Part shown: positions 24,465 to 25,955 of the stretch, piece after piece
How positions within the stretch are numbered: the stretch's first letter is position 1
Layout: every line of letters begins with the position of its first letter
NCBI GenBank assembly: GCA_029262315.1
Contig: JAJCZP010000152.1
Coordinates: 1 to 37,763, forward strand
DNA from: Deltaproteobacteria bacterium
GTDB taxonomy: Bacteria; Desulfobacterota; Binatia; UTPRO1
Length of the DNA stretch: 37,763 bases
Reading direction: 5' to 3'
Program-made: the position numbers and the translations under genes
The notes under the pieces: model-generated
The model's database searches: none
The model's input: the letters and a program-made list of their open reading frames with translations, nothing else
What the model was told of the DNA's origin: nothing

Positions 24465-25421
24465 TCATCCGTATGCGCGTTCGACAGTGTGCATGCCATC
24501 GCGTGCGCGTTGACGTGTGGAGGATGACGGCGCGCGCATGCGGAGCGCGTGCGGCACAACCTCGATCTCGAGTTTCGTGGTCGGGCCATACTCCTCGCCG
24601 TCGATCTGCACTGCCAGCGGCTGAGCGAACGTGAGGTTGACGGCGCGGACACGCTGCATGGCGTCGGGAGAGATCGCCCGGGCGTGCGCGTACCCGACCC
24701 GTCGCCGCCACGCCATGACGAAGCGTACGATGTAGTCTCGGCGGGTGGCGAAGGTGTGGAGATCGAGGAGGCCGTCGTCGGAGCGGTCGGCGATATCGAA
24801 CATGAATTCGCCAGCGTAGAGGACCGTATTTGTAAAGAGCAGGTTGTAGAGGTCGCGCGCGCTCTCGGCTCCGTCGATCGTCATATGGGTGCGAGCGCCG
24901 TGTCTGGGCACTAGGGCGTTGATCGCACAGCTCCAGAGGTAGAGCGGATACCCTCCGAGGCGGCGACCGAGATGCCAGCGTTGGCGTAGGCGATTCCGGA
25001 GCGCGAGGATGTCGGCGTCCATCCCAACCGCCAGCGAGCTCACGAAGTAGCGCTCATTGGCGCGGCCGACGTCGAGCGATCGCGGGGCGCCCGTGTGCAC
25101 GGCCCCGATGGCGGTATCGATGGCCGTCGGTCCGCCGGTGCGGATGCTGGTCAGGCCGAGGGAGCGGGCGACGTTGTTTGCGGTACCGAGCGGCAGGATG
25201 CCGAGACGTGGCCGCTCCACACGTGAGTGGCGCATCAGCGCGGTCACGACATCATTCACGGTGCCGTCGCCGCCTGCGGCGACGACGACCTCAGGGTGAG
25301 TGTCCTCGATCCAACGTGCGATCCGCTCGATGTCCCGACCGTCTCCGCATGTTTCGAGATACCCGGCTTGAGCCAGTCGATCGTGAATGGTGCGCGCGGT
25401 CTCGGTCCAGACCGAACGCAC
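24465..25421 (-). CDS. Diacylglycerol kinase catalytic-domain protein (YegS/DgkB-like)
   Basis: A lipid kinase-like protein of 318 residues from GTG 25421, the first standard start codon in frame. The nucleotide loop VVAAGGDGTVNDVV and the following GILPLGTANNVARSLGL are classic for the DAGK catalytic domain. The C-terminal beta domain (VGMDADIL, DDGLLDLHTF, QIDGEEYGP) is complete. Such enzymes phosphorylate diacylglycerol, sphingosine or undecaprenol at the inner membrane face with ATP. The GTG start omits the first strand of the fold: VVNPSALAGPV is encoded just upstream, in frame, after a TAG. No ATG, GTG or TTG lies between the TAG and that strand. So the true start is probably a rare codon (ATC 25481 is possible), or the TAG is read through from the upstream membrane-anchored gene. 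Confidence 0.85.
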   Translation of the reverse strand: MRSVWTETARTIHDRLAQAGYLETCGDGRDIERIARWIEDTHPEVVVAAGGDGTVNDVVTALMRHSRVERPRLGILPLGTANNVARSLGLTSIRTGGPTAIDTAIGAVHTGAPRSLDVGRANERYFVSSLAVGMDADILALRNRLRQRWHLGRRLGGYPLYLWSCAINALVPRHGARTHMTIDGAESARDLYNLLFTNTVLYAGEFMFDIADRSDDGLLDLHTFATRRDYIVRFVMAWRRRVGYAHARAISPDAMQRVRAVNLTFAQPLAVQIDGEEYGPTTKLEIEVVPHALRMRAPSSSTRQRARDGMHTVERAYG

Positions 25422-25484
25422 CGGGCCAGCGAGTGCGCTCGGATTGACGACGAGAGCCGACGATATGACGTGGTCGCCGATGGC
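25422..25484 (-). other. In-frame N-terminal extension of the lipid kinase without a standard start
   Basis: These 21 codons between the TAG (25485-25487) and the GTG at 25421 read through GDHVISSALVVNPSALAGP, in frame with both the upstream gene and the kinase. ALVVNPSA is the expected first strand of DAGK domains, so the region is very likely translated. Candidate starts are ATC (25481) or ATA (25466). GGAG lies about ten bases before the ATC. Confidence 0.55.
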
Positions 25485-25955
25485 CTAGCCGCTCCGTCGG
25501 CGACGCAGGGCGCGTGCCAGGGCGAGCGCGGCGTAGAGCAAGCCGGCCGCGGCGATCTGCGCGCGATAGCGAAAGAGGAAATGCGCGGAGTAGACGACGC
25601 GGTCACCGGACTCGATCTTGGTGATGCAGGCCTGCCAGCGGTCGAGCCCTCCCGGGAACCCCACCCGCAGCGTGAGCGTCCATGGCGTGTCGGAGGAGGC
25701 GGCGCAGTCGATGACCGTGACACCCCAGGTCTGCTCGCGCGCGGTACACTCCGCGAACAGGTCGAACCCGAGCGCGGCCTCAACGCGGTCACGGAATGCC
25801 AGGGCGCTCTCGGAAAGGCCGCGGCTGCTCTGCCAGTAGCAAGTGCCACCGAGCGCCTGGGCGTCGTCGGCGAGGGTGGCGGACGCCCTCGGGGCCAGCG
25901 CGAGCCCCAGCAGTAGGCCCAGGCACGCGACAGCGGTGATGCGAGATCGACCCAT
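25485..25955 (-). CDS. Exported protein with C-terminal membrane anchor
   Basis: A 156-residue protein starting at ATG 25955, with AGGG eight bases upstream; an in-frame ATG at 26063 adds 36 residues that spoil the signal peptide. Residues 1-26 form a signal peptide (VACLGLLLGLALAPRASA). The middle contains four cysteines (GTCYW, FAECTA, VIDCAAS, WQACIT), probably two disulfides in the periplasm. The end is a hydrophobic helix AGLLYAALALARA followed by RRRRSG, giving an outside-to-inside anchor with the C-terminus in the cytoplasm. I do not recognise the family. The TAG stop is in the same frame as the downstream lipid kinase, with no frameshift and no intervening stop, so the two may be coupled or occasionally fused by readthrough. 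Confidence 0.7.
   Translation of the reverse strand: MGRSRITAVACLGLLLGLALAPRASATLADDAQALGGTCYWQSSRGLSESALAFRDRVEAALGFDLFAECTAREQTWGVTVIDCAASSDTPWTLTLRVGFPGGLDRWQACITKIESGDRVVYSAHFLFRYRAQIAAAGLLYAALALARALRRRRSG

Follow-up and report, generated by a model that had tools for sequence, protein, structure and literature searches.

A DAGK/YegS-type lipid kinase gene of an uncultured Binatia bacterium with its conserved first strand ahead of any standard start codon, possibly translated from a near-cognate AUC

Near-cognate, weak start codons are a rare but known kind. Myxococcus dsg starts at AUC and pcnB at AUU, while infC, which encodes IF3, is a further gene with a near-cognate AUH start. In Staphylococcus aureus, the AUA or AUU starts of ccpN, cvfC1 and citZ are reported to yield, in poor medium, about a tenth (10%) of the expression seen with AUG, ccpN reaching up to 30% in rich medium, and all of these non-canonical starts carry extended Shine-Dalgarno sequences (SDs) (PMC13009471). 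A second study used an E. coli reporter, in which reinitiation dropped twofold when stop and start were 4 nt apart; it also reports that raised IF3 levels are inhibitory to non-canonical starts (PMC2268962).

The locus described here was found in the window, by which we mean the whole stretch of 37,763 nucleotides that was analysed, and comprises a DAGK/YegS-type lipid kinase on the minus strand. The putative near-cognate AUH start of the kinase would be shared with infC and pcnB, and infC of the same genome reads ATA. As for S. aureus ccpN (AUA), cvfC1 (AUU) and citZ (AUA), the non-canonical start would belong to a metabolic or regulatory gene; however, the S. aureus starts are backed by ribosome profiling and reporters and come with extended SDs (PMC13009471), whereas the kinase start is predicted from sequence. 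Following the TAG at 25487-25485, an open frame runs from 25484 as far as a stop whose last base is 24465, covering 339 codons with no internal stop or frameshift. The features of the locus are:

25485..25955, minus strand: upstream ORF (ATG 25955 to TAG), 471 bases, with a signal-peptide-like N-terminus, a C-terminal hydrophobic stretch and RRRRSG
25492..25495, minus strand: GGAG, Shine-Dalgarno-like, 10 nt before ATC 25481
25485..25487, minus strand: TAG stop, end of the upstream ORF, read from the sequence
25479..25481, minus strand: ATC, favoured putative start codon of the kinase, 10 nt after GGAG and 3 nt after TAG; infC starts at ATC in L155 and L157 (by eye)
25464..25466, minus strand: ATA, second candidate start codon, in a weaker SD context; infC of the same genome starts at ATA
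25422..25484, minus strand: coding leader without ATG, GTG or TTG, holding strand 1 (ALVVNPSALAG), based on Pfam, PDB match and codon comparison
24465..25481, minus strand: DAGK/YegS-type lipid kinase, 338 residues if ATC-started (PF00781 1.5e-21, PF19279 3.7e-7)
25419..25421, minus strand: GTG, first standard start, not preceded by an SD; strand 1 would be lost

The first ATG, GTG or TTG downstream of the TAG is GTG 25421, and 21 codons lie in between: GCC ATC GGC GAC CAC GTC ATA TCG TCG GCT CTC GTC GTC AAT CCG AGC GCA CTC GCT GGC CCG. Reading all of them bears out the observation, made in a sequence-only reading of this DNA, that a conserved DAGK strand is encoded here with no ATG, GTG or TTG between the upstream stop and the conserved coding sequence. 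The same reading correctly placed the upstream gene in the frame of the kinase, and the ORF ending at the TAG does have both the hydrophobic C-terminal stretch and RRRRSG.

Two Pfam domains of the kinase were found above their curated cut-offs, DAGK_cat (PF00781) at 76.7 bits against 23.6 and YegS_C (PF19279) at 30.5 bits against 27. The catalytic and C-terminal domains, together with the GGDGT motif, are common to the window protein and the DAGK_cat/YegS lipid kinases (PF00781, PF19279; TIGR00147). It differs from these in its start codon and in scoring below the cut-off of NCBIfam TIGR00147 (YegS/Rv2252/BmrU; 87.8 bits against 118.65), and is not placed in that subfamily. Codon usage is normal: the score is 42 in frame, against -120 and -155 in the two alternative frames of that strand. 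A single-sequence AlphaFold model was uninformative (pLDDT 36), and two further DAGK_cat matches occur in the same genome.

A start-free leader by itself means little, because 97 of the 267 ORFs that were called from codon usage, in a sample of 437,763 bases from the genome, have a start-free stretch of at least 20 codons before the first standard start; its coding character is what matters. The codon-usage score of the leader is neutral (0.2, versus -6.4 and -10.0 for the two alternative frames). The DAGK_cat alignment begins at residue 11 of the frame, corresponding to profile position 4, while a protein started at the GTG aligns only from profile position 17, its score falling slightly, from 76.7 to 73.1 bits. 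Of nine PDB matches, 4wer_A is the best by sequence and its alignment starts at query residue 9, but four start only after residue 50. We compared the 11 codons of ALVVNPSALAG with those encoding ALVVNPCALAG in the relative L032 (genome G108; 48% identical overall), and found 3 identical, 7 synonymous and 1 non-synonymous; for L002, the same codons gave 3, 5 and 3, respectively. By this comparison the leader is conserved at the protein level, and so translation should begin before GTG 25421, unless the enzyme has no first strand.

It was found that the GGAG could form an SD duplex of -6.2 kcal/mol. This is a moderate match and not strong evidence by itself, since -6 kcal/mol is reached by 16.6% of 2000 random 25-mers. 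For comparison, infC of the same genome has an SD of -11.1 kcal/mol, and there is no SD at GTG 25421 (-2.2 kcal/mol). RNA folding around the kinase start is unremarkable (z 0.04). The infC start is an ATA (L086 1471-1473, contig C251 of genome G000), located directly after AGGAGGTGTCCC and overlapping the TAG of the preceding gene, which we take to be thrS on the basis of its sequence. The same ATA comes after AGGAGGTG.

Among 23 infC loci of the class inspected by eye, 15 start at ATA, two at ATC (L155, L157) and four at ATG or TTG, with two not assigned. A further gene of this genome, fmt (L088 14789-15781, minus strand), seems to be CTG-started, and five family members have CTG (two), ATG (two) or TTG (one) at the same codon; the support from fmt is weak, as a GTG shortly after the CTG is also possible. 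Taken together, the infC counts and the fmt CTG suggest that near-cognate starts, ATC included, appear to be a natural feature of the class, for infC at any rate. Unlike the kinase, which has GGAG only, infC here has the full AGGAGGT and an ATA that is widespread in the class; the kinase start, in contrast, is not shared by any relative read.

A survey of the 267 called ORFs revealed 13 with coding signal at least 8 codons before the first standard start. Nine of these, the kinase and eight others, were scanned with Pfam, with four in L095, L098, L104 and L106 outside the scan. Two of the eight are without a Pfam family and six have no domain beginning before the first standard start, leaving the kinase as the only one of the nine with a domain beginning ahead of it; the fmt domain was aligned only from profile position 14, not before its first standard start. 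The survey is a lower bound, because spurious upstream starts hide genes such as infC, which was missed for this reason.

The relatives of the kinase were found to be few and distant. Matches at E<=1e-35 occur in 7 of 148 class genomes, its own included, with a best identity of 53%; the five further genomes of its family are all without one. This patchy occurrence of the subfamily (window 24465-25484, minus strand) suggests transfer or repeated loss. Five of the six close class relatives are readable at this end (L002, L003, L004, L032 and L033, but not L034), and all five have standard starts ahead of strand 1: L003 has a GTG five residues ahead of LLIIVNP, L032 a TTG or GTG, while in L004 and L033 a GTG overlaps the preceding TGA. 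The start-free arrangement is found in none of these five, all at most 53% identical to the window kinase. In L002, the N-terminal region of the kinase (about 1385-1515) crosses GCGGAATG/CATTCCGC-like repeats, the source of some upstream starts. A wider check covered 35 DAGK loci, with a search pattern that can begin inside strand 1. Fourteen were resolved, each with a standard start no later than the part of strand 1 that was matched; 12 of the remaining 21 were also resolved, 10 with a standard start before strand 1 and two (L021, L068) with long frames and no standard start in the residues shown before it. Nine loci, L034 included, were left out of these counts. The search for closer relatives turned up no other assembly of the species and, among genome contigs, one distant locus only; a scan of viral contigs gave none, and plasmid matches were all under 60% identity. 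A search of 395 phylum genomes at 1e-40, which does not repeat the 148-genome class search, gave only the window's own match among the matches listed; up to five candidates were scored in each genome, and the class was represented by 15 genomes besides its own.

The upstream ORF has a coding score of 22.8 in frame, against -68 and -52 in the two alternative frames of its strand. It has no family above cut-off (Asp5 at 18.9 bits against 25), and the class search, with 147 genomes besides its own, gave no clear homologue, just the ORF itself and one partial match (E 0.0057, residues 2-67). Neither a fusion to this ORF nor the ORF itself was seen in any of the five readable close relatives of the kinase.

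On balance, we consider that the kinase is probably, if far from certainly, a separate protein initiated at a near-cognate codon, most likely AUC 25481 and less likely AUA 25466, through coupling or via the GGAG. The kinase would be started by ribosomes fresh from terminating the upstream ORF, whose TAG lies three nucleotides before the AUC, or alternatively by new ribosomes loading on the GGAG. Most initiation would occur on AUC and a little on AUA. From the DNA sequence we infer all that is said here on kinase expression, including the use of AUC, the coupling to upstream translation and a low expression level, and the start may be sensitive to IF3, as is known for infC.

The sequence-only reading had put forward translation through the TAG, with initiation at ATC 25481 after GGAG as its alternative, and the latter proves the better supported of the two, given the GGAG at 10 nt, the 3-nt gap from the TAG and the ATA and ATC starts of infC in this genome and class. 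Programmed UAG readthrough would fuse the upstream membrane protein to the kinase, yielding mostly the short membrane protein and few membrane-tethered kinases, such that the sole full-length kinase would always be anchored. The topology argument made for it is sound, as the hydrophobic stretch and RRRRSG at the C-terminus would keep the kinase on the cytoplasmic side, and the two ORFs share a frame with no start between them; it has, however, no support beyond itself. A shared frame is ordinary in the genome sample, where 132 adjacent same-strand pairs include 31 of this kind (in 22 pairs a single stop lies between the two), and the upstream ORF lacks clear homologues. TAG is also common as a stop, ending 96 of the 267 called ORFs, and the RF1 gene is present, as is that of RF2, both assigned by their sequences; prfB (L083) appears to keep what we take to be the usual early in-frame TGA calling for a +1 frameshift. 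A suppressor tRNA and a fused gene in relatives had been proposed as checks. None of the five readable relatives is fused, and no CUA anticodon was found among the 44 tRNA matches in the genome (typed with ARAGORN), a set that could miss a suppressor and is no proof, being visibly incomplete. Several expected anticodons, such as Ile-GAT, Ala-TGC and Leu-TAA, are missing from the 44 tRNAs of G000 despite a high completeness estimate, so the assembly misses some tRNA genes. With no fusion in the five readable relatives, no CUA tRNA among the 44, RF1 present and frequent TAG stops, readthrough was rejected as the leading idea and is highly unlikely. Very improbable too is that the gene has an ordinary start, GTG 25421, and encodes a 318-residue kinase that lacks strand 1: although this is the first standard start in frame and DAGK_cat still scores 73.1 bits, the strand 1 sequence is conserved in L032 and L002 and aligned in 4wer_A, and the GTG has no SD. 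It was rejected on the conservation of strand 1 in relatives.

The main rivals to a coupled near-cognate start are a consensus error and a recent start-codon loss. A sequencing or assembly error masking an ordinary start codon in the leader would fit with an assembly in 298 contigs, with several leader codons that are one base from a standard start, with an SD of no more than moderate strength for a weak start codon and with the standard starts of the five readable close relatives. According to the sequence-only reading, relatives with a clear ATG at this point would refute its observation and indicate such an error. Standard starts do exist in relatives, which bears this out in part, but with identities of at most 53% they do not prove an error. 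Apart from its start, the frame is intact across its 339 codons, and an error in one given start codon would seem improbable a priori, whereas non-canonical starts form a small but known class; we therefore judge an error unlikely, if the more serious of the two. Less likely again is that the start codon was lost recently, leaving a young pseudogene or background-level expression only. The subfamily does look dispensable, present in 7 of 148 class genomes and in none of five others of the family at E<=1e-35, and the two other DAGK_cat matches in the genome point the same way. Against this, the 339 codons contain no stop or frameshift, and codon usage is normal (42 in frame versus -120 and -155).

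Should an error or a start loss be the explanation, the case is an ordinary one. If real, the kinase would add a near-cognate start to those of infC, in an uncultured lineage where ATA or ATC also serves to start infC, and annotation limited to ATG, GTG and TTG would cut a conserved strand off this enzyme. A lipid kinase would then be under IF3-sensitive, coupled translation.
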